Source: Bacteroidia bacterium
Lineage (GTDB): Bacteria > Bacteroidota > Bacteroidia > Bacteroidales > Azobacteroidaceae
Length of the DNA: 28,475 nucleotides
Assembly: GCA_025996865.1 (NCBI GenBank)
Contig: BNTV01000061.1
Location: forward strand, 1 to 28,475
Direction: 5' to 3'
In this document: in pieces, positions 19,299 to 28,297 of the stretch
How the letters are laid out: each line of letters starts with the position of its first letter
How positions within the stretch are numbered: position 1 is the first letter of the stretch
Made by a program: the position numbers and the translations under genes
Notes under the pieces: model-generated
What the model was told of the DNA's origin: nothing
The model's database searches: none
What the model saw: the letters and a program-made list of their open reading frames with translations, nothing else

Positions 19299-19590
19299 AA
19301 TTTTTTAGATTAAAAAATATGATATAAATAACAGCGTAGTAATACGCACAAATTAAGACATAATAAATGAGCTTTTTAGCTCTTATTCTCTTGAGAATCG
19401 AAATCTACCAATTTCAAATCGTAAGTGAGAATAAGGTTGCGAAGGTTCACGTCTATCGGCGTGGACTGTTCGTGCTTATTTACTTACAATGGTTTTGGTA
19501 GAGCCAGATTTTCAAGAATAAGCAACAACGAGCAGTTTCGCGCTTTTTTGTTTGCCTAAGTTTAAGAGTTTGAGGCATAAACTTTTAAAT
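19299..19590 (+). ncRNA. Structured 5' leader with mutually exclusive stems (candidate RNA switch)
   Basis: Several perfect helices can be drawn. CTTATTCTC (19382-19390) pairs with GAGAATAAG (19427-19435). GTTCACG (19445-19451) pairs with CGTGGAC (19460-19466, one G-U). TGCTTATT (19473-19480) pairs with AATAAGCA (19517-19524) and encloses a small TGGTT/AGCCA hairpin. Alternatively, GTAAGT and AATAAG (19421-19435) can pair with CTTATT and ACTTAC (19475-19487), which excludes two of the other stems. A T6 run follows at 19544-19549. Just before the ATG, TGCCT (19553-19557) can pair with AGGCA (19573-19577), or AAGTTTA (19558-19564) with TAAACTT (19578-19584). This suggests attenuation or translation control. 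I do not recognise it as a named RNA family. Confidence 0.5.
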
Positions 19591-21162
19591 ATGGCAAGAG
19601 AATTAATACTAAACAATCCGTATCGCACCCTTGGACTGCTCGCGGGGGCAAGCGCAAGGGAAATAACGCGGCAGACTAATAATCTGAAGAAGTATATTGC
19701 CGCAGGCGCAGAACCACCTTCCGATTATAGTTTTGCTACTTTAGATAGATTTCGACGTACTGCCGAAGATATTGATGCCGCAACCGCAAAACTGAATTTA
19801 GACGAAGACAAAATGCTCTCTGCCCTCTTTTGGTTTTGGAATGGAAATGAGATTACCGACGAGCCGGCTTTTGATGCATTAAAAGAAGGCGATGCGGAAA
19901 CCGCTTACCAGATTTGGAACAAACGGATTATCCAAACCACAGAGGACGGAAAACGTATTTGGAAAGCGGTTTCCGGAGGAAATTTTTCGGCTTTTCACAA
20001 CTATTTTGTGGTGGAAACGTTGCGGAAAAATGGTAATCGAAACACTGCCGTTGCCGCAAATTTGCTGTTTTTGGAAAGCGCTTATTACCTCAAACTTGTC
20101 AATGCCGCTACCGACACTACCTACAAAACGACAAAAAAGGATTTGCAACTCCTGTTTTTGAATGAAATTACAGAAGAAATTGAAAGTGAAAAAGTTCACC
20201 ATGAACTATTAAATTTTGTCAAGCATATCAAAAATTATGATTTTGCTGCAAAAACCGATTTTCTGAAATTCATTTCTCAAAAATTTACAACGAACATTAC
20301 CGCCCAAATAGAAATCGCCCGTAAAGCTCGCACCGCCAATAAACAAAAAGCCGCAACAGCAGGCGAAAATCTCTTTAAAAATATCAAAAACGATTTTGCG
20401 CAATTGAAAGAAATTTTTGGGGCGAAAGATTTTTCGTATTCCAATATTGCCGATAAGGTGGCAAATGAATTACTACAGTGTTCTATTGACTTTTTCAATG
20501 ACAGTCAGGATAAACAACTTGACAACGACTACCAAGCAAAAGCAACAACTTTGGCGAAATTGGCACAAAACGTTGCGGTGGGGCAAGTGGTAAAAGGCAG
20601 AATAAAGGAAAATCTGCAAACACTGGAGAATATGAAGGATAGAGAAATTTTACAGGCGATAGCAGCATTACAATCTGTAAAAGATGCGTATGAAACTAAC
20701 AAAACTAAAATTACAGCACGAGTCAAAATACAAGAATTAACCTTGGATTGGAATCAGTCAATAAATTGGAACAAAGTCAATGAGTCAATAGAAAATTCTA
20801 TAGATTGGAATAAAGTTGTTGAATTGATTCAAAAAGTAATAACGTCGAAAAATGTTGATAAAATAAGGAATGCTGCAAATGCTGCAAAAATAGATGAATA
20901 TAAGAGGTTAGTAGATTTTGTATTTGAAAAATTGAGTCGTTCTCAAAAATCAAAAGTAAGTTATTTGGATTGGTGGGGTAGTAATACAAGGTCAATGACT
21001 ACACGAACATTCCAAACTACACAAACACTCCAGACTCCACTAGCATCAATTTACACCCCGAAAAAAGAAAGTTGGTCGGATGAAGCCGTGGGCTGTTTGG
21101 CGGTATCGATAGTAATTGCTGTCATTGTAGCATTAGCATTAATAGCAATATTTAATTCATAA
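19591..21162 (+). CDS. Tail-anchored protein with J-domain-like N-terminus
   Basis: This 523-residue protein is the first gene of the chaperone/kinase operon. The ATG at 19591 was preferred to an upstream TTG because it gives MARELILNNPYRTLGLLAGA, a start shared, as far as I recall, with a family of hypothetical proteins in Bacteroidota. The NPYRTLGL...ASAREI segment resembles the first helix and turn of a J-domain, but no HPD tripeptide is present, so it should not be called a DnaJ without further proof. A long, charged, mostly helical middle follows. The C-terminus is one hydrophobic segment (CLAVSIVIAVIVALALIAIF) ending within 3 residues of the stop, typical of a tail anchor with the body in the cytoplasm. 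Its place next to an Hsp70 suggests a co-chaperone or adaptor role, which is inference. Confidence 0.75.
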   Translation: MARELILNNPYRTLGLLAGASAREITRQTNNLKKYIAAGAEPPSDYSFATLDRFRRTAEDIDAATAKLNLDEDKMLSALFWFWNGNEITDEPAFDALKEGDAETAYQIWNKRIIQTTEDGKRIWKAVSGGNFSAFHNYFVVETLRKNGNRNTAVAANLLFLESAYYLKLVNAATDTTYKTTKKDLQLLFLNEITEEIESEKVHHELLNFVKHIKNYDFAAKTDFLKFISQKFTTNITAQIEIARKARTANKQKAATAGENLFKNIKNDFAQLKEIFGAKDFSYSNIADKVANELLQCSIDFFNDSQDKQLDNDYQAKATTLAKLAQNVAVGQVVKGRIKENLQTLENMKDREILQAIAALQSVKDAYETNKTKITARVKIQELTLDWNQSINWNKVNESIENSIDWNKVVELIQKVITSKNVDKIRNAANAAKIDEYKRLVDFVFEKLSRSQKSKVSYLDWWGSNTRSMTTRTFQTTQTLQTPLASIYTPKKESWSDEAVGCLAVSIVIAVIVALALIAIFNS

Positions 21163-21198
21163 AATAATATTACCAATAATTATTGAACATAAATTAAT

Positions 21199-22077
21199 AT
21201 GAAACACTTACAAATCATCACTCTCTGCCTGTTCCTCACAACAGGCGCATCGGCGCAAAACTTTCCCGACAGCACGATTATCCTGTTGCAGCAAGAAATC
21301 AAAGCATTGAAATCAGCCGACAAACGTTTGGACGACGAATTGGCAAGCCAGAAAAAGCAGTTGCAAATATTTTCCGAAAACGTAAATGCCGAACTGGAAA
21401 CCAACAAGGCAAACATTCAGACAATTAGCGATAGTTTAGGTGTCAAAATCGCCGCAACCGAACAAAACGCCCAAACGAAAATTGCGGGTGTTACCGAATC
21501 GGTAGGCAAAAAATCGTTGTTTGCCGGTATTGGTGGCATTGTACTGCTGTTGCTGTCTATTACATTGTTCTTTTGGTTGTACCGCAGGCAAAAATCCAAC
21601 AGCGCAGATATTATCAAGCAATTGGAAAAAACGAAATCGTCAATTGATGAAAAATTGGTGGTAGAATTTGCGAAAAATGCAGAGGCGTTGCAATCCCTTG
21701 TAGGGGCGTTGCGCGCAACGCCCCTACCCAACGGCGCACAACCCAGCGAGATAGACCATTCCCTTGCCCTAAAATTATCTGACGAAATTACCCTGATTGA
21801 ACGTAACATTTCGTTAATGGACGCAAACACGAAAGGTTTGAAACAGTTAAACCGCTCTATCGGCAAACTGAAAGACAACCTTGCTGCCAACGGTTACGAG
21901 ATTCCTGAATTATTGAGGAAACCGTACAATGAGGGCATGAAAGCAATTATCACAAACACCATTCAAGACGAAAATCTAGAGAAAGGCGTAGAGCTGATAA
22001 CAAAAATCGTAAAACCGCAAGTGAATTACAAAGATGTGATGATACAAGCAGCGCAAATAGAAGTGAGTATAGGATAA
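21199..22077 (+). CDS. Secreted/anchored coiled-coil protein of unknown function
   Basis: This 292-residue protein starts with a signal peptide (MKHLQIITLCLFLTTGASAQ, likely cut after ASA). A periplasmic heptad-like coiled coil of about 80 residues follows, then one transmembrane segment near residues 110-132 (IGGIVLLLLSITLFFWLY) ending in basic RRQKS. A cytoplasmic helical half ends in IG. The topology therefore spans the membrane once, with an outer coiled coil and an inner domain. It lies 36 bases after the tail-anchored protein gene and is probably in the same transcript. A 28-base perfect palindrome lies in frame in the cytoplasmic half at residues 168-177. I do not recognise the family; a membrane sensor or scaffold for the chaperone module is a guess. 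Confidence 0.75.
   Translation: MKHLQIITLCLFLTTGASAQNFPDSTIILLQQEIKALKSADKRLDDELASQKKQLQIFSENVNAELETNKANIQTISDSLGVKIAATEQNAQTKIAGVTESVGKKSLFAGIGGIVLLLLSITLFFWLYRRQKSNSADIIKQLEKTKSSIDEKLVVEFAKNAEALQSLVGALRATPLPNGAQPSEIDHSLALKLSDEITLIERNISLMDANTKGLKQLNRSIGKLKDNLAANGYEIPELLRKPYNEGMKAIITNTIQDENLEKGVELITKIVKPQVNYKDVMIQAAQIEVSIG
21700..21727. repeat. 28-base perfect palindrome inside a coding sequence
   Basis: GTAGGGGCGTTGCG followed directly by its reverse complement CGCAACGCCCCTAC forms a perfect 28-base palindrome with far higher GC content than the gene around it. It encodes the odd linker around GALRATPLPNG in the coiled-coil protein. The composition is that of intergenic GC-rich palindromic repeats, so an in-frame repeat insertion is likely. 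Confidence 0.85.
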
Positions 22078-22085
22078 TGAATAAA

Positions 22086-22322
22086 TTAGCAAATATATTG
22101 CATGTATTTTTCATATTTGGAAAAATATTCAGGCGCAGGATGTTTGGGCAAGTGAGCAATGTTTTTTTCGATGTAAGCCAGCATATCGGAAACATACCGT
22201 ATAGCAGAATCCATCAAACCAAAATAATTTTGATAATACAGAGTTTCGGAAAGTTGGTTAAAATAGTCAAGGACTTCGTCGGTGTAACGAACAATCGGTT
22301 TATCGTTTATCGTGTTCCTCAT
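22086..22322 (-). pseudogene. C-terminally truncated RelE/ParE-type toxin
   Basis: This minus-strand frame of 78 residues starts MRNTINDKPIVRYTDEVLDY and ends PEYFSKYEKYMQYIC. The pattern (IVRYTDEVLDY, a helical pair, then a PxYFSKY segment) fits the N-terminal three quarters of RelE/ParE-like toxins of Bacteroidota. The usual final strands, which in this family carry an aromatic and basic end (of the type TTWYIFF), are missing. The stop comes just before the convergent end of the coiled-coil gene at 22077. It is probably inactive. Its start overlaps the preceding small ORF by 23 bases, as expected for an antitoxin-toxin pair. The plus-strand open frame over the same stretch looks like a shadow. 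Confidence 0.6.
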
Positions 22323-22473
22323 ATAATTTTATTATGTGTTGTATTGCCCGCCTTTCAAATTCTTCACTTGACATTGAATTGCTCAAAAGTTCTTCAAAGC
22401 GAGATTGATTATTTCTATAATTTTCAGCATCCTTCGTCTGAATTTCAGGTTCGATATAATCTAAAACTTCCAT
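22300..22473 (-). CDS. Small antitoxin-like protein
   Basis: This is a 57-residue acidic, helical protein from ATG 22473 on the minus strand. It starts MEVLDYIEPEIQTKD and contains NNQSRFEELLSNSMSSEEF, followed by a helix with basic residues. It overlaps the toxin-like gene by 23 bases in a different frame, the usual arrangement of a type II antitoxin upstream of a RelE/ParE toxin. No DNA-binding motif can be assigned with certainty. A -7 element (TATCTTTG) lies 21 bases upstream. The pair is antisense to the surrounding chaperone/kinase operon. Homology is not established; the call rests on size, coding character and gene order. Confidence 0.55.
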   Translation of the reverse strand: MEVLDYIEPEIQTKDAENYRNNQSRFEELLSNSMSSEEFERRAIQHIIKLYEEHDKR

Positions 22474-22493
22474 ATTCAAATAATTTTATGTGG

Positions 22494-22501
22494 CAAAGAT
22501 A
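22494..22501 (-). promoter_or_regulatory. Putative -7 element of the antitoxin-toxin pair
   Basis: The minus strand reads TATCTTTG, a full match to TAnnTTTG, ending 21 bases before the antitoxin-like ATG. It lies in the 55-base region also upstream of the Hsp70 gene on the other strand. No good -33 element was seen. Confidence 0.5.
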
Positions 22502-22528
22502 AGTAATAATTTTTTAATATAAAGCAAT

Positions 22529-25057
22529 ATGCGAAATAAAATTGATTACGGAATTGACTTGGGAACAACCAATTCCGCCATTGCAAGAATGGAAAACGGA
22601 GTTCCTGTGATAAAGAAATCGGACACGTTAAAAGATACTGTGCCGTCGTGCGTGAGTTTCAACAAGAAACAAGACATATTAGTAGGTGATGCAGCAATGA
22701 ATGTGCTAAAAAAAGAAAGCGCTTACGCATTAAAGACTTTTACTAAAAGTAAGAGTAACACATTTGTTGAGTTTAAGCGCACAATGGGAACAACACATAC
22801 CTACGAAAGTGCATATATGGAGCGTGAGTTCAAATCTTTCGAGTTGTCGGCGGAAGTATTGAAAAAACTGAAATTACTGATTCAAGACGAAAATATCTCA
22901 TCCGTAGTGATTACGATTCCCGCAAAGTTTCAAAATCAGCAATGTGAGGCGACAATGCGGGCGGCAAAGTTGGCGGGTTTCAAGCAGGTACAACTTTTGC
23001 AGGAGCCGGTTGCAGCAGCTACGGCTTATGGTTTGGGCAGTAAGTCGAAAGACGGTTTTTGGTTGGTATTCGACTTTGGCGGTGGCACTTTCGATGTCGC
23101 GTTGGTAAAGTCGGAAGAAGGAATTTTGTCGGTAAAAGATACAGAAGGTGATAATTGGCTTGGTGGTAAAAACTTGGATTTAGCTATTGTTGATGAATTG
23201 ATAATTCCTTATTTACAGGAAAATTATGCTGTTGATGGCATCCTTGCTGACGACAATAAAAAAGAAATATTGAGGGAAGCCATGAAACGTATGTATGCGG
23301 AAGACACAAAAATACAATTGTCCTTCAGTCCCAAACATAGTATTTTGTATAACTTGGATGAAACATTTGAAGATAAAGAAGGAAATGAAGTAGAGATAGA
23401 TTTAAATATTACTTCAGCAGATTTAGAACGAGTGCTCGCACCTATTTTCCAAAAAGCAATCGACATTACCAAAGATTTACTGAAACGAAACAATCTGAAA
23501 GGCAGCAATCTGGATAAATTGATTTTGGTTGGCGGGCCTACACATTCGCCTATTTTGCGCCGAATGTTGCGCGAACAGATTACCGAAAACGTAGATACGT
23601 CCGTTGACCCGATGACAGTTGTGGCCTGCGGCGCAGCATTATACGCATCCACGATTGATGTAACCGACGAAATTCAAGACGAAACCCGCGATGAAACAAA
23701 ATTGCAACTGGATGTAAAATACGAAGCCGCTTCGGTAGAACCGACCGAATTAATCAATATCAAAGTATTGAAAGACAAATCAAAAGGCACTATTCCCACC
23801 GAACTTTTTGCCGAATTACTCCGTTCCGATGGTGCATGGAGCAGTAACAAAACCAAAATTGGCGAAAAAGCTGCACTTGTGGAAGTCGCTTTGATTGAAG
23901 GACGCTCCAATTCATTCACAATCAACGTGTATGACGGACAGAGCAACCGCATTGACTGCGAGCCGAATCAATTCAATATTTTACAGGGAATTGGCGGACT
24001 TGATGGAATTCAGGTTTTACCCTATCATATCTGCATTGTGAAACATTTTGCAGACGAAGAAAAAGACTTAATAATGCCGGTCAAAGGATTGGAAAAGAAC
24101 AACCGCTACCCCGCTACCGGCGTTTCAAACGGACTGAAAACCCGCAATGCAATTCGCCCCGGAATGGTAAGCGACAAACTTCGCATCCCTATTTATCAGG
24201 GCGACTATAATGCCGAAAAGTCCAATCCGGAACTAAATAATCTTGTTAATGAAGTAATTATTACAGGCGAAAACCTGCCCACTTTGTTACCGGAAGGTAG
24301 CGATGTGGATATTACAATTAAGGTAGATAAATCGGGATTGATGAAGTTTATTGCCTTTTTTCCTGTGCTGGGACATGAAGAAGAAATCGAAATTTCGATT
24401 AAGGCAATAGAAACGCCGAAAACAAATGAGTTGGCTAAGAAAATTGCAAATGCAAAACGAACGGCAAAAAATGTCAATTCCAAAGATATTTTGGCAAGTT
24501 TAGAAACGCTTGAACAACAACTTGATAATGAAAAAGGGAGTGACGATGGCAAAATGAAAATTCTCGACGGCTTGCGAAAAGAACTGTTAAAACTTGATAC
24601 ATTGGAAAAACAGCAAGAGTGGCCACAGATTGAGCAGGAATTGAAAGATGCTTACTTTAAGTTTGAGGAATTGGTGCAAAAAATAAAAATGCGTGGCGAT
24701 GACGGTGATTTGAATATGAATTCAATAGACGCTGAATTACAGAACATTAAAAAGAATGTTGAACATGTCATAAAAGAAAAAAATCGTGGCGCAGCCAAGG
24801 AGTTGATTTCAGAAATAAGCTCGTTGGATTTCAATTTACGCAATGCTGTTACAGGCAATGCGATGGATATTAAATTTTTGCAGCACTTCAACAACGATTT
24901 CAATAGTTTTCATTGGAAAAACGCAACAAAGGCAAGACAGCTAATTAATCAAGGTTTGCAAATGGTGGCGAACGGAAACAATAACATTCGTCCTGTTTTG
25001 GTGGAAATTGTGCAACTGATACCGAGAGATGAATTACCAACGGATACATTAGTATAA
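22529..25057 (+). CDS. Large non-canonical Hsp70 (DnaK-like) chaperone
   Basis: This 842-residue protein is about 200 residues longer than housekeeping DnaK. The nucleotide-binding domain (about 1-380) is complete, with phosphate loops YGIDLGTTNSAIA and LVFDFGGGTFDVALV, the linker segment LQEPVAAATAYGL and adenosine loop LILVGGPTHSPILRRML, so ATP hydrolysis is expected. The part after residue 380 is divergent. A beta-rich region about 400-640 replaces the classical peptide-binding domain, and the last 200 residues are highly charged helices with coiled-coil character. There is no DnaK-type acidic EEVD-like end. It probably works with the J-like, TerB-like and AAA+ proteins encoded around it rather than in general folding. 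The gene is separated from the upstream part of the array by the antisense toxin-antitoxin pair. Confidence 0.9.
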   Translation: MRNKIDYGIDLGTTNSAIARMENGVPVIKKSDTLKDTVPSCVSFNKKQDILVGDAAMNVLKKESAYALKTFTKSKSNTFVEFKRTMGTTHTYESAYMEREFKSFELSAEVLKKLKLLIQDENISSVVITIPAKFQNQQCEATMRAAKLAGFKQVQLLQEPVAAATAYGLGSKSKDGFWLVFDFGGGTFDVALVKSEEGILSVKDTEGDNWLGGKNLDLAIVDELIIPYLQENYAVDGILADDNKKEILREAMKRMYAEDTKIQLSFSPKHSILYNLDETFEDKEGNEVEIDLNITSADLERVLAPIFQKAIDITKDLLKRNNLKGSNLDKLILVGGPTHSPILRRMLREQITENVDTSVDPMTVVACGAALYASTIDVTDEIQDETRDETKLQLDVKYEAASVEPTELINIKVLKDKSKGTIPTELFAELLRSDGAWSSNKTKIGEKAALVEVALIEGRSNSFTINVYDGQSNRIDCEPNQFNILQGIGGLDGIQVLPYHICIVKHFADEEKDLIMPVKGLEKNNRYPATGVSNGLKTRNAIRPGMVSDKLRIPIYQGDYNAEKSNPELNNLVNEVIITGENLPTLLPEGSDVDITIKVDKSGLMKFIAFFPVLGHEEEIEISIKAIETPKTNELAKKIANAKRTAKNVNSKDILASLETLEQQLDNEKGSDDGKMKILDGLRKELLKLDTLEKQQEWPQIEQELKDAYFKFEELVQKIKMRGDDGDLNMNSIDAELQNIKKNVEHVIKEKNRGAAKELISEISSLDFNLRNAVTGNAMDIKFLQHFNNDFNSFHWKNATKARQLINQGLQMVANGNNNIRPVLVEIVQLIPRDELPTDTLV

Positions 25058-25072
25058 ACTTTAATTTATTGA

Positions 25073-25177
25073 ATGATAAAGATGTTCGGTGAAAATGATT
25101 TGTATGCTTATATAGCTTTAACTCACTTAATTTTGGTAATCCCAATTTCATTATTTTTCAAACAGCAAAAAAAGTGA
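25073..25177 (+). CDS. 34-residue putative membrane peptide
   Basis: A short frame starts 15 bases after the Hsp70 stop. It encodes MIKMFGENDLYAY, a hydrophobic segment IALTHLILVIPISLFF, and a basic KQQKK end, a typical small single-span membrane protein. Its TGA overlaps the GTG start of the next gene within GTGA, the usual arrangement for translational coupling. Coding is supported by position and composition only; the alternative is a spacer with chance properties. Confidence 0.45.
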   Translation: MIKMFGENDLYAYIALTHLILVIPISLFFKQQKK

Positions 25178-26040
25178 ATGATATGACACGATATATTTTT
25201 TCAAGGTTTGTTGGAGTATTCATAGTTACTTTTTTCTTTCGTTGGGCTTTTGCAATAAAATCGCAGCTATTGATTTTTGGTAATATGAATGACAGTAGAT
25301 TTTCAAGTTCTATTCTTGCATATATTTTAATGTTTGTTGTGGTTGCAATAGGAATTTTAGTGCTATGTTCATTCTTCCTATTTTTGAATATTAATGAGTA
25401 TACTGGTTATTATGTGGAAGTAGAAAAAAATGAATATGGACGCAAAATTTATGAACACGAAAAAGAATTGACTCTCATTGAATATATTGGAGGTGAGAAA
25501 AATCCCCAATTAGTATTAAGTCAATACATAAAAATTGTTTTTTTATCATGGGGGTACTTTAATGAGATATTTTTTATAATCGAAAAGAAAAAAGAGAAAA
25601 ATGCCTCTGCATTGTTTGTTTTATTAGTAATATCACTTTGGTTAATAAAAGGTAATCCTCTGATAAATAACTATTATGGCGTTTACAAAACATACGAAGT
25701 TGAAACAAGAGCTGGTTCTGTAAATGAAGAATATTCCAAAATTATTGTACAAAAAAACATTGTAAAACAAACTATTAATTCGATTGAAAATAACTGCGAA
25801 GATTGGGAAGATTGCGATGTCAATAAAAGAGGATATATATTTTTGGAAGCAGGCATGTTTGACGGTTTCTACAATGATGCAGACAAAAAATATTTTAGTG
25901 CTCTGAAATTTTCATTTTTAGAGATATTAATTCATACGGCAATGTATTTTGCTGTGCCTTTTTTGACTGTGATAATAATTAAGAATAGAATTAAATATAA
26001 AAGAATAAGATGGAAACAGCTTTTGAAAACCTATTGCTAA
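25174..26040 (+). CDS. Multi-pass membrane protein of unknown function
   Basis: This 288-residue protein (GTG start at 25174, or ATG at 25183) is notably AT-rich compared with its neighbours. Four hydrophobic segments are visible: near residues 10-28, 46-72 (ILAYILMFVVVAIGILVL), 145-160 (ALFVLLVISLWLI) and 247-270. A charged loop lies between the second and third. A longer one between the third and fourth contains a cluster of acidic residues and two cysteines (NNCEDWEDCDVN) and could be extracytoplasmic. Its end overlaps the TerB-like gene by 31 bases, so the two are firmly linked in one operon. I do not recognise the family. It may be the membrane component to which the TerB-like and AAA+ proteins couple. 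Confidence 0.75.
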   Translation: MNDMTRYIFSRFVGVFIVTFFFRWAFAIKSQLLIFGNMNDSRFSSSILAYILMFVVVAIGILVLCSFFLFLNINEYTGYYVEVEKNEYGRKIYEHEKELTLIEYIGGEKNPQLVLSQYIKIVFLSWGYFNEIFFIIEKKKEKNASALFVLLVISLWLIKGNPLINNYYGVYKTYEVETRAGSVNEEYSKIIVQKNIVKQTINSIENNCEDWEDCDVNKRGYIFLEAGMFDGFYNDADKKYFSALKFSFLEILIHTAMYFAVPFLTVIIIKNRIKYKRIRWKQLLKTYC

Positions 26041-26513
26041 GAACAGCCTTTTGCTGTATGGCTTCCGACGGCGTGATTGCCGACGAAGAAGTGTCGTTAA
26101 TTAAAGATTTGTGTCAAACGATGCCTGAGTTTGCGAATACAGATTTTGCCGATGAAATCAGCCGTTTTGTGTCCGAAATCAATGCGGAAGGTAAGAATTT
26201 CATTGTCGACTTTTTGCAAACACTCAAAACAATGGACTTGTCCGATCGGGAAGAATTGGCGTTAATCAACATTGCTGTCCATGTAATTAAGACAGACAAT
26301 GTGATTGAATACTCGGAAATCAAATTTTTCAAGACTATCCGCTACTGTCTGAAAGTCAGTGATGAAACAATTTTGTCTGATTTATCAACAAAACACGACG
26401 ATATAGATTTGTTTCTCGGCGAAGATATTCGGGCTAAAACATCATTGGATAAAATCATCCAGCAATATTTGGATTTGGTAGAATTGAAAAAATTTCAAAT
26501 ATCAAAAACATGA
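26010..26513 (+). CDS. TerB-like helical protein
   Basis: This 167-residue, all-helical protein resembles the TerB (tellurite-resistance/co-chaperone DjlA N-terminal) family. The N-terminus has the characteristic ASDGVIADEEVSLIKDLC, an acidic loop proposed to bind metal in this fold. A second, similar set is VIKTDNVIEYSEIKFFKTI in the middle. TerB-type domains are found both in tellurium/phage-related stress systems and fused to J-domains in DjlA, fitting its place beside an Hsp70. Its start lies inside the 3' end of the membrane-protein gene, and its stop overlaps the kinase/AAA gene by 4 bases (ATGA, 26510-26513). Confidence 0.75.
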   Translation: METAFENLLLRTAFCCMASDGVIADEEVSLIKDLCQTMPEFANTDFADEISRFVSEINAEGKNFIVDFLQTLKTMDLSDREELALINIAVHVIKTDNVIEYSEIKFFKTIRYCLKVSDETILSDLSTKHDDIDLFLGEDIRAKTSLDKIIQQYLDLVELKKFQISKT

Positions 26514-28297
26514 ACCTTCCAAAAAACACGCTTATTGATGGTAAATATACCGTTCTGCTTTTCATTAAGAATGGGAAAAATGCCGAAACATACCGAGTAA
26601 AAGGAACAGACGGCAAACTATATTTTCTTAAATTGTTCAATTTTGCACACTTGCATCGTTCTGCATTTGATGCGAATAACAATTTATTGGAAATTGAATT
26701 TCTAAAAGCAATAAAGCATCCGAATATCGTTTCTTACAAAGACAGCGGCGAAGTCATCGTTGAGGATAAGAAATACGGTTATTTGGTTTTGGATTTTATT
26801 GCCGGAGAAACATTGGCGGAACACATTGCACGTGAATCTTTTTCTACCCTTTACGACATCCGGCAAATCATGTTGGGTGTGTTGAATGGATTGAAGTATC
26901 TGCACTCGTTGCCAGACCCTATCATTCACAATGAAATTATCCCGCAAAACATTATGTTGGATTTGTCGGGCGATGTGCCTCAAGCAAAGATAATTGATTT
27001 TGGCTATGCTCGTTCGTTCCATCAATCGACAAAAGCATACAATAAGGAAGGGCTGAATTTGAATTATGTCGCTTCGGAATGTTTCAATAATCTGTATTCC
27101 CCACAATCCGATTTGTTTTCGGTGGGTGCGGTCCTGCACCAATTATTGTTTGGCTTACCACCTTGGTTCAAAGATATTTCAAGGTATCAGGCAAGTCGTA
27201 TCAATATAGAAGAAGCTATTTTGGAAGAACGGCAACGACCGCTTGTTTTGCCAGATATAGAAAGTAAATTCATTGATTATGAATCTTCTATTCTAAATAT
27301 CGTCAAAAAAGCTATACACAACGACCCCGAAGAACGGTTTCAATCGGCAAATGAATTTATCCAAGCTTTGAACGGCGAAATAGAAGTGCCTGATATAGAT
27401 ACTGTTCAAAGAGTGAAATCAGATGACCAGCCCAGCAGTAAACCCAAGATACGAAAAGCTAAAGGCAAAGGTTTTGATGCCATTGCAGGGATGAATGAAT
27501 TGAAAGCGCAACTCAAATTAGATGTCATAGATGCCTTGCATAATCCCGAAGAATATGCAAAATATGGCGTAACCATTCCCAACGGAATGTTGTTGTATGG
27601 TCCTCCGGGCTGTGGTAAAACATTCTTTGCTAAACATTTTGCCGAAGAAGTAGGCTTTAATTTTGTGCTGGCAACGCCCTCCACATTAAAAAGTCGCTAC
27701 GTCAATGCAACGCAAGAAAACATTGCAAAGATGTTTGAAGAAGCCGAAAAAAATGCGCCCACGATTATTTTTATTGATGAAATCAACGAACTTTTACCGA
27801 ATCGCGACAGCGATGCACACGAAATGTCCAAAAGCGCCGTTAATGAAATGTTAGCGCAGATGGACAGAACCGGTGAAAAGGGCATTTTTATCATTGGCGC
27901 AACGAATTATCCCGACATGATTGACCCCGCTATGCTTCGTGCAGGTCGATTGGATAAGAAATTTTATCTGCCGCCACCCGATTTTGCAGCGAGAAAAACA
28001 ATGTTTGAAATGTATCTGAAAAACAGACCTTTGGACTTCGGTATGGATTATGACAAACTCGCCTTGTTGACCGAAAATTACGTTTCGGCAGATATTGAAT
28101 TTTTAGTGAATGAAACGGCGCGTATTGCCTTGAAAGAGAAAAGTCGGATTACCATGATTCAGTTGGAAAACACGATTCGGACAACAAAGCCCTCTGTGCC
28201 ATTGAATGAGTTGAAGAAATTCGAGGAAATAAGGGCAAAAATGAATAGTGAGATTATTGAGCAAAAAAACAAACGTCCCAGAGTTGGTTTTATATAA
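26510..28297 (+). CDS. Fusion of a degenerate Ser/Thr kinase domain with a p97/FtsH-type AAA+ ATPase
   Basis: This 595-residue protein has two domains. The kinase-like domain (about 10-290) keeps the ATP lysine K41, the loop asparagine N147 and DFG at 163-165. Its catalytic loop, however, reads HNEIIPQN instead of HRDLKPxN, so the catalytic Asp is Glu (E142) and the following Lys is Ile, and the Gly-rich loop is poor. It may be a pseudokinase. After a basic linker near 300-320 comes a complete AAA+ module. Walker A GPPGCGKT is at 364-371, a pore-loop aromatic lies in SRYVNAT, Walker B IIFIDE is at 419-424, sensor 1 lies in IIGATN, and arginine fingers R477 and R480 lie in AMLRAGRLD. This is a classic-clade unfoldase or remodeller. 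It is the last gene of the operon. Substrate and output are unknown. Confidence 0.9.
   Translation: MNLPKNTLIDGKYTVLLFIKNGKNAETYRVKGTDGKLYFLKLFNFAHLHRSAFDANNNLLEIEFLKAIKHPNIVSYKDSGEVIVEDKKYGYLVLDFIAGETLAEHIARESFSTLYDIRQIMLGVLNGLKYLHSLPDPIIHNEIIPQNIMLDLSGDVPQAKIIDFGYARSFHQSTKAYNKEGLNLNYVASECFNNLYSPQSDLFSVGAVLHQLLFGLPPWFKDISRYQASRINIEEAILEERQRPLVLPDIESKFIDYESSILNIVKKAIHNDPEERFQSANEFIQALNGEIEVPDIDTVQRVKSDDQPSSKPKIRKAKGKGFDAIAGMNELKAQLKLDVIDALHNPEEYAKYGVTIPNGMLLYGPPGCGKTFFAKHFAEEVGFNFVLATPSTLKSRYVNATQENIAKMFEEAEKNAPTIIFIDEINELLPNRDSDAHEMSKSAVNEMLAQMDRTGEKGIFIIGATNYPDMIDPAMLRAGRLDKKFYLPPPDFAARKTMFEMYLKNRPLDFGMDYDKLALLTENYVSADIEFLVNETARIALKEKSRITMIQLENTIRTTKPSVPLNELKKFEEIRAKMNSEIIEQKNKRPRVGFI

Follow-up and report, generated by a model that had tools for sequence, protein, structure and literature searches.

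A Conserved Gene Module Combining an Hsp70, a Predicted Transmembrane GrpE-like Protein, and a Kinase-like/AAA+ Fusion, with a Scattered Distribution Mainly in Bacteroidota

Introduction

In Escherichia coli, HscC is a specialized Hsp70 that has a membrane-anchored J partner, DjlC, and the pair is not known to include a transmembrane GrpE, an AAA+ protein, or TerB. To our knowledge, Hsp70 cycles are set by soluble exchange factors. The transmissible locus of stress tolerance (tLST), or protein quality control locus, includes ClpK/ClpG, a small Hsp20, and FtsH. This locus is described as a cargo that moves horizontally and has a link with tolerance of stress (PMC8290217; PMC8407380). The GAP1-N2 GTPase conflict systems of actinobacteria and firmicutes contain Hsp70, GrpE, and DnaJ-FNIII proteins (PMC7159879); the CoCoNuT systems contain Hsp70-like domains and coiled coils near defense genes, as well as TerY-P kinase modules (PMC11090510). 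Here, we describe a plus-strand run of seven genes, at positions 19591–28297, that closes contig BNTV01000061.1 of a bacterium from the Azobacteroidaceae (Bacteroidales). This stretch, one complete contig of its assembly (28,475 bases), is called the window below. The genes for a J-like protein, a GrpE-like protein, an Hsp70, a TerB-like protein, and a kinase-like/AAA+ fusion belong to a conserved and unnamed gene set, or module, which is found in scattered bacteria, mostly Bacteroidota. The original prediction, made from the letters of this DNA, had counted eight genes; seven were found, the number that its own list also contains, and its boundaries left out a leader RNA at 19363–19545.

Conservation and Distribution of the Gene Set

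A scan of genome contigs with an alignment of J-like proteins, scored with the window proteins and then with profiles, yielded 44 loci. In 41 of them, the J-like, coiled-coil (GrpE-like), and Hsp70 genes follow each other in this order on one strand, and the record titles of the order-keeping loci name three phyla; thus, the linkage is more than chance. Of the two outcomes considered in the original prediction, a gene order conserved across genomes or genes occurring without linkage, we observe the former, the latter having been assessed for the J-like gene only. The kinase-AAA+ gene is present in 30 of the 44 loci and the TerB gene in 24. The complete five-gene order is kept in 22 loci, and in one more the kinase-AAA+ and TerB genes are fused. 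The predicted set is real. The kinase-AAA+ gene precedes TerB in all 23 other loci having both; in the window, TerB and the motor are swapped. Ten loci contain the first three genes without kinase-AAA+ or TerB, and eight of these ten stop less than 400 nucleotides (nt) from a sequence end. The J-like gene is the only module gene seen in three loci, one of which (L012) stops 182 nt 3′ of that gene. In the genome of locus L101, the Hsp70, kinase-AAA+, TerB, and J-like genes lie in the order given here, and the coiled-coil gene is on a separate contig.

Among 395 sampled Bacteroidota genomes, the J-like profile matched eight, which is a lower bound given that at most three candidates were scored per genome. 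The coiled-coil profile matched 32 of the 395 at E≤1e-5 and six at E<1e-30, and all six fall among the eight J-like-positive genomes; most of the weaker matches cover the coiled-coil half only. In the remaining two of the eight, one J-like gene lies at a contig end, and the other, a variant, is followed by a 216-amino-acid (aa) open reading frame (ORF) and an Hsp70. The genome that contains the window has a second J-like/GrpE-like/Hsp70 trio on another contig (C70, locus L007), in which the J-like gene has a truncated end and the trio is followed by neither a motor gene nor a TerB gene.

Scans of the window proteins against NCBIfam and PADLOC returned no named system with the full gene set. 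Strong matches were confined to individual domains of the kinase-AAA+ protein (mad6, PD-T4-6, and IetA among others), and matches elsewhere were weak. A literature search, in which subscription papers and bioRxiv preprints were thinly covered, gave no description of the set. The initial impression that no named system has this composition agrees with these searches.

Components of the Module

The coiled-coil gene (21199–22077, plus strand) encodes 292 aa with a signal-like N-terminus, a coiled coil, a transmembrane (TM) segment at 21517–21573, and a GrpE-like domain at approximately 21742–22074. A profile search of PDB with its alignment found coiled coils, GrpE being absent from the best 60 of 231 rows, and a fold search was therefore needed. 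The AlphaFold model has a mean predicted local distance difference test (pLDDT) score of 85.5, and all nine Foldseek matches of the C-terminal domain at E≤0.001 are GrpE or GrpEL1. The predicted structure of this part contains the helices plus beta wing of the GrpE fold. The model thus points to a transmembrane GrpE-like protein, with the coiled coil presumably outside and the GrpE-like domain in the cytosol. What had been read as a signal-peptide coiled-coil protein does have a signal-like N-terminus and a coiled coil; its GrpE-like character had been missed.

GrpE-like sequences occur in other settings as well. In the genome of the window, a 3540-aa open frame (contig C71, locus L099) matches the GrpE-like C-terminal domain with E 4.5e-9, a hint that the domain is also employed within a giant protein. 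On contig C6 of this genome (loci L008 and L072), a 491-aa Hsp70 adjoins a 348-aa ORF that matches GrpE weakly (E 1.3e-4); the two may form a further divergent Hsp70/GrpE pair. Sister systems in Proteobacteria, on Vibrio rumoiensis plasmid 2 (L098), Pseudomonas hygromyciniae pSDM007 (L097), and Aminobacter pAM01 (L183), comprise an Hsp70 with a GrpE-head-like protein of 114–117 aa and a large upstream protein. The Vibrio system also has an AAA+ protein ending in IGFI and a protein with a peptidoglycan-binding domain, and AAA, helicase, and RES genes are found in the vicinity of the Hsp70 on pAM01.

The 842-aa Hsp70 (22529–25057, plus strand) was correctly anticipated: PF00012 matches with E 1.7e-67 over residues 8–403, the nucleotide-binding domain, and the C-terminal half is divergent. 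The equivalents of the ATP-site residues K71, E175, D199, T204, and D206 are kept in all 35 Hsp70 relatives, and that of D10 in 34 of them, with one gap. The nearest solved relative is DnaK; a second stretch of the protein matches a DnaK chain weakly, with a listed value of 18.

The 595-aa kinase-like/AAA+ fusion (26510–28297, plus strand) matches both the protein kinase (E 4.9e-37) and AAA (E 7.4e-38) Pfam families, with the kinase part at approximately 26570–27343 and the AAA+ part at approximately 27587–27973. The Walker A Lys, Walker B Glu, both arginine fingers, and the pore aromatic residue are present in 30 of 30 relatives and the Walker B Asp in 29; the nearest PDB relatives of the AAA+ domain are Cdc48/p97, and the FtsH model matches far under its cut-off (185 vs. 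600 bits). The position of the HRD Asp is occupied by D in eight of the 30 proteins, by E in 17, including the window protein, and by N, A, or G in five. Given this degeneration beside the retained AAA+ residues, the kinase domain is probably a pseudokinase in most members, on an active AAA+ motor. The proposal of a kinase-like/AAA+ fusion thus stands for both domains, with the kinase degenerate in most relatives. A C-terminal [IV]G[FY] tail, of VGF/IGF type, lies at most eight residues from the end in 29 of the 30 proteins (alignment A2), the 30th being fused to TerB; it is also seen in the sister AAA+ protein of Vibrio and on plasmid pHALHY02 of Haliscomenobacter. In ClpX, an IGF loop docks ClpP. 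By resemblance to this loop, the tail may be a docking site for a host peptidase, ClpP for example, or for some other partner.

The TerB-like protein (167 aa, 26010–26513, plus strand) was found as described, with PF05099 below threshold (18.1 bits vs. a gathering score of 24.4). Asp-Gly and Glu positions in two repeats are conserved among the 24 aligned members, and the pHALHY02 relative carries a TerB family annotation.

The J-like protein (523 aa, 19591–21162, plus strand) consists of a J-like N-terminal region without HPD, a helical body, and a C-terminal TM helix at 21097–21153. Against 11 J domains from 20 fetched loci, hhalign gave a weak match (probability 68, E 4.8e-5, score 28.2 vs. 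a shuffled maximum of 15.7). The N-terminus is modeled below pLDDT 60, and the C-terminus differs between relatives. The tail anchor noticed at the outset is there; the J label depends on the weak profile match, with HPD absent. The relative on pHALHY02 is annotated as CFI-box-CTERM. A coherent Pfam family for the J-like proteins was sought and rejected, with none among the best 25 of 76 families when 34 proteins were scanned.

Hydrophobic segments were called with a Kyte-Doolittle window. One was found in each of the J-like protein (at the C-terminus), the GrpE-like protein, and a 34-aa peptide (25073–25177, plus strand), and four in a 288-aa membrane protein (25174–26040, plus strand), in agreement with the several membrane proteins seen at first reading. 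The last four genes of the run overlap by 4, 31, and 4 nt, as had been noted. The two genes between Hsp70 and TerB form a variable slot. A search of 5.8 billion proteins that required shared five-residue words found only the 288-aa protein itself. The multi-pass membrane protein and the 34-aa peptide are not conserved parts of the module; they had been counted among its members, and are indeed present with TM segments. Elsewhere, DUF6804, lipoprotein, or secreted-protein genes lie between the Hsp70 and motor genes or after TerB. DUF6804 is found in 18 of 50 loci, a lipoprotein family in six, a relative of an SH3 protein 5′ of the J-like gene in six, and CpXC in two.

The window is unusual in the 451-nt gap between its second and third genes. 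At the 41 other loci with both genes, this spacing is 10–32 nt in 32 cases, an overlap in five, and 51, 82, 136, and 534 nt in the other four. The gap holds a minus-strand ORF of 78 aa (22086–22322), outside the conserved module, and, on the same strand, an overlapping ORF of 57 aa upstream of it (together 22086 to approximately 22473). Judged by eye, these look like an inserted toxin-antitoxin-type pair, a putative assignment; the 78-aa ORF has no Pfam match, and neither has a relative in the other fetched loci. The 534-nt gap between the GrpE-like and Hsp70 genes at L039 contains a different, plus-strand ORF of 157 aa.

Horizontal Transfer and Genomic Neighborhoods

The tree of Hsp70 proteins mixes orders and largely ignores taxonomy. 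It has 35 rows with order labels taken from record titles; six rows are unlabeled, and labels of metagenome-assembled genomes (MAGs) can be wrong. The 13 Bacteroidales rows require nine changes, at least seven of them forced by supported branches, against a mean of 10.7 in shuffled trees (85 of 500 as low). For the nine Flavobacteriales rows, there are five changes, and seven of 500 shuffles are as low. A gammaproteobacterial MAG row groups with Ancylomarina with support 100/100. The module seems to move horizontally between species as one package.

A clear defense island surrounds the full module on plasmid pHALHY02: SIR2/WD40 genes flank it on one side and BREX genes with McrBC-like genes on the other, after which come COR, macro-domain, and DUF4433 genes. 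By eye, HsdM/HsdS-like genes of type I restriction-modification lie beside locus L024 and OLD-like and UvrD genes beside L052. Most other neighborhoods that were read are ordinary chromosome in appearance. PADLOC models matched 85 families among 129 flank proteins, with one type I methyltransferase and one specificity subunit, and 152 among 108 flank proteins, as compared with 48 among 118 control proteins, where GajB, reverse transcriptase, and methyltransferase models also match. As these models are redundant, no defense enrichment is claimed. Nearness to defense islands, which the original prediction proposed to check, is clear for this one copy. WD40-repeat and kinase-like proteins are encoded upstream of the J-like gene at L037, L038, and L096, as on pHALHY02. 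In the window, genes upstream of the module were read by eye as [NiFe]-hydrogenase genes.

Two further ideas were dropped. Enrichment of mobile genes near the module, with integrase or relaxase relatives at eight of 50 loci and one of 13 control stretches, shows nothing alone. Phage-borne copies were sought through 121 phage records matching the kinase-AAA+ protein, none of which covers 80% of it; the best 15 of the 121 cover about half or less. No relative was found in viral contigs.

Leader RNA

A leader RNA (model R1; 19363–19545, plus strand) ends at a T-run just 5′ of the J-like gene. In an alignment of 22 copies, the window copy included, its consensus structure is paired in 93.1% of cells, against at most 48.5% in slid controls. 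The 78 double-sided changes exceed a shuffled mean of 26.8 (none of 500 shuffles as high), and the covariation score is 0.287 vs. at most 0.100 when slid. The window copy scores 176 bits with cmsearch, being one of the 22 training sequences. Rfam has no match to the leader at E≤1 in the window or at E≤0.1 in nine other copies. The strand at 19458–19468 can pair within the leader hairpin or with 19533–19543, the latter forming a terminator-like stem before TTTTTT (19544–19549). This alternative helix is paired in 94.2% of cells vs. 28–51% in slid controls, with no covariation beyond shuffles.

The leader is present in 16 of 45 genomes of the family (DNA search), in 21 of 80 genomes of the order, each from another genus and with up to 18 copies, and in ten of 148 genomes of the phylum sample. 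It lies directly 5′ of the J-like gene in six of the 44 other loci, in Bacteroidales and Flavobacteriales: L011 (293–465), L012 (9734–9913), L023 (9717–9889), L030 (9745–9916), L031 (2204–2374), and L043 (9743–9915); of these, L023 (E 0.0013) and L031 (E 2.5e-4) match weakly. In a batch of 40 sources, all four leader matches at E≤0.1 are 5′ of the J-like gene. Elsewhere, it precedes varied genes, by eye including those for DNA methyltransferases, vWA/PP2C, and secreted proteins. The leader is thus of wide use and not specific to the module, and we read it as a possible attenuator.

Possible Functions of the Module

In the interpretation that we favor, on which we are about evenly divided between acceptance and doubt, the module would encode a mobile Hsp70 machine tethered to the inner membrane and coupled to a Cdc48-like unfoldase, which would remodel or clear membrane or envelope clients. 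Its observed basis is the gene order, predicted GrpE fold, ATP-site residues of the Hsp70 and AAA+ proteins, hydrophobic segments, patchy distribution, and tree discordance; from these we infer the topology, chaperone cycle, hand-off, ClpP docking, and clients. In the simplest mechanism, the J-like protein would keep the Hsp70 and its client at the membrane through its C-terminal anchor. The periplasmic coiled coil could influence nucleotide exchange, and hence client release in the cytosol, through the transmembrane GrpE. The AAA+ motor would receive the released client and thread it, with the degenerate kinase domain and TerB as possible adaptor and regulator, and its IGF-type tail may dock ClpP or another partner, perhaps feeding the client to a host peptidase. 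The job of such a machine would be to remodel or clear damaged or foreign membrane and envelope proteins as horizontally transferred stress-tolerance cargo. If this is true, chaperone turnover within the cell would be governed from the far side of the membrane through a transmembrane GrpE, and an Hsp70 and a Cdc48-type motor are joined in one horizontally transferred bacterial operon. The module may reveal a route by which bacteria dispose of membrane proteins, or a way for a chaperone to work as an immune system.

A number of results weigh against this interpretation. HPD is absent from the J-like proteins (0 of 22 in alignment A1 and 0 of 34 in A7), and DnaJ is not among the best 25 of 76 Pfam families for 34 members; it is the weak profile match, together with the missing HPD and the low-confidence model, that made us name the protein J-like and not a J protein. 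Similarly, PF01025 (GrpE) does not match the GrpE-like domain at E≤0.1, hence its name. Comparisons by hhalign, one of them with 15 of 17 GrpE loci, also speak for the domain, yet the probability to Bacteroidota GrpE is 33% only. Foldseek template-modeling scores to GrpE are low (0.22–0.29 by query, up to 0.50 by target), as the long helices do not superpose. VIA-align matched GrpE, yet with 19 rows above it, mostly helical bundles including BAG domains, and alone does not separate GrpE from other helical bundles. Pfam recognizes no substrate-binding half in the C-terminal part of the Hsp70, the module encodes no protease, and the neighbors in defense islands fit another role.

That other role is the main rival to membrane remodeling, and we regard it as possible but less likely: in antiphage or anti-plasmid defense, the periplasmic and membrane parts would sense a disturbed envelope during infection, and the chaperone-unfoldase would dismantle phage proteins or trigger cell arrest. 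The location on pHALHY02 amid SIR2/WD40, BREX, McrBC-like, COR, macro-domain, and DUF4433 genes points in this direction, as do the type I restriction-modification genes and the OLD-like and UvrD pair seen by eye at L024 and L052, the patchy occurrence and horizontal transfer of the module, its variable accessory slot, and the AAA, helicase, and RES genes around the sister Hsp70 of pAM01. The kinase half also resembles the mad6 and PD-T4-6 models, and the AAA half resembles IetA. However, most other neighborhoods look like ordinary chromosome, the PADLOC excess in the flanks is a crude count of redundant models that find GajB, reverse transcriptase, and methyltransferase in the control too, and viral contigs yielded no relative. 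In addition, a Pfam scan of the core genes revealed no nuclease, NADase, or other known effector. A version combining sensing with the chaperone, which we consider rather unlikely, is that envelope damage or phage entry switches the cytosolic Hsp70 via the periplasmic coiled coil and transmembrane GrpE and so fires the Cdc48-like unfoldase, the whole being a defense or stress cassette with an attenuator-like leader in some lineages; if true, it would mean transmembrane control of an Hsp70 machine.

Secreted-protein or lipoprotein genes in or just before the operon at several loci suggest another scenario, a dedicated biogenesis machine for a secreted or surface protein (lipoprotein, SH3, or beta-sandwich) encoded in or beside the operon. 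It is improbable in our view: the candidate cargo genes differ by locus, the core is free of extra genes at some loci, L015 among them, and the slot protein of the window is an orphan membrane protein. The presence of Hsp70 and GrpE-like genes might also suggest an ordinary, vertically inherited heat-shock operon of the DnaK type. This is extremely unlikely, with the module in eight of 395 genomes (a lower bound) and the discordant Hsp70 tree, and we reject it because canonical DnaK, GrpE, and DnaJ are encoded separately, at other places in this genome.

Comparison with Known Systems

Like DnaK/DnaJ/GrpE, the module joins in one operon an Hsp70 with conserved ATP-site residues, a protein with a predicted GrpE fold, and a weakly J-like partner. 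Here, however, the GrpE-like part is on a predicted transmembrane protein with a coiled coil across the membrane, the J-like part is membrane-anchored and without HPD, and a kinase-like/AAA+ ATPase and TerB are added; the module is also sparse and apparently horizontally transferred. With HscC/DjlC it shares a specialized Hsp70 and a membrane-anchored J partner, to which it adds the transmembrane GrpE, AAA+, and TerB proteins. Its motor has the AAA+ core, arginine fingers, and pore aromatic residue of Cdc48/p97, but only one AAA+ domain, flanked by a degenerate kinase domain at the N-terminus and an IGF-type tail at the C-terminus.

The tLST is, as we propose for the module, a horizontally mobile cargo associated with stress tolerance. 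ClpK/ClpG, small Hsp20, and FtsH were not found among the module proteins of the window, and the module is mostly from Bacteroidota. The GAP1-N2 systems likewise have Hsp70, GrpE, and a J protein in a conflict-type operon, whereas no GTPase or FNIII was found in the window module, which has a transmembrane GrpE and a Cdc48-like motor and occurs in other phyla. For the CoCoNuT systems, an Hsp70-like protein and coiled coils near defense genes, together with TerY-P kinase modules, are the points of likeness; the window module differs in that no McrB-type GTPase, McrC, or HEPN was found in it and in the intact ATP-site residues of its Hsp70. None of these three has the defining parts tested here, and we see the module as an Hsp70 machine with a predicted transmembrane exchange factor and an added unfoldase, which seems to spread horizontally.

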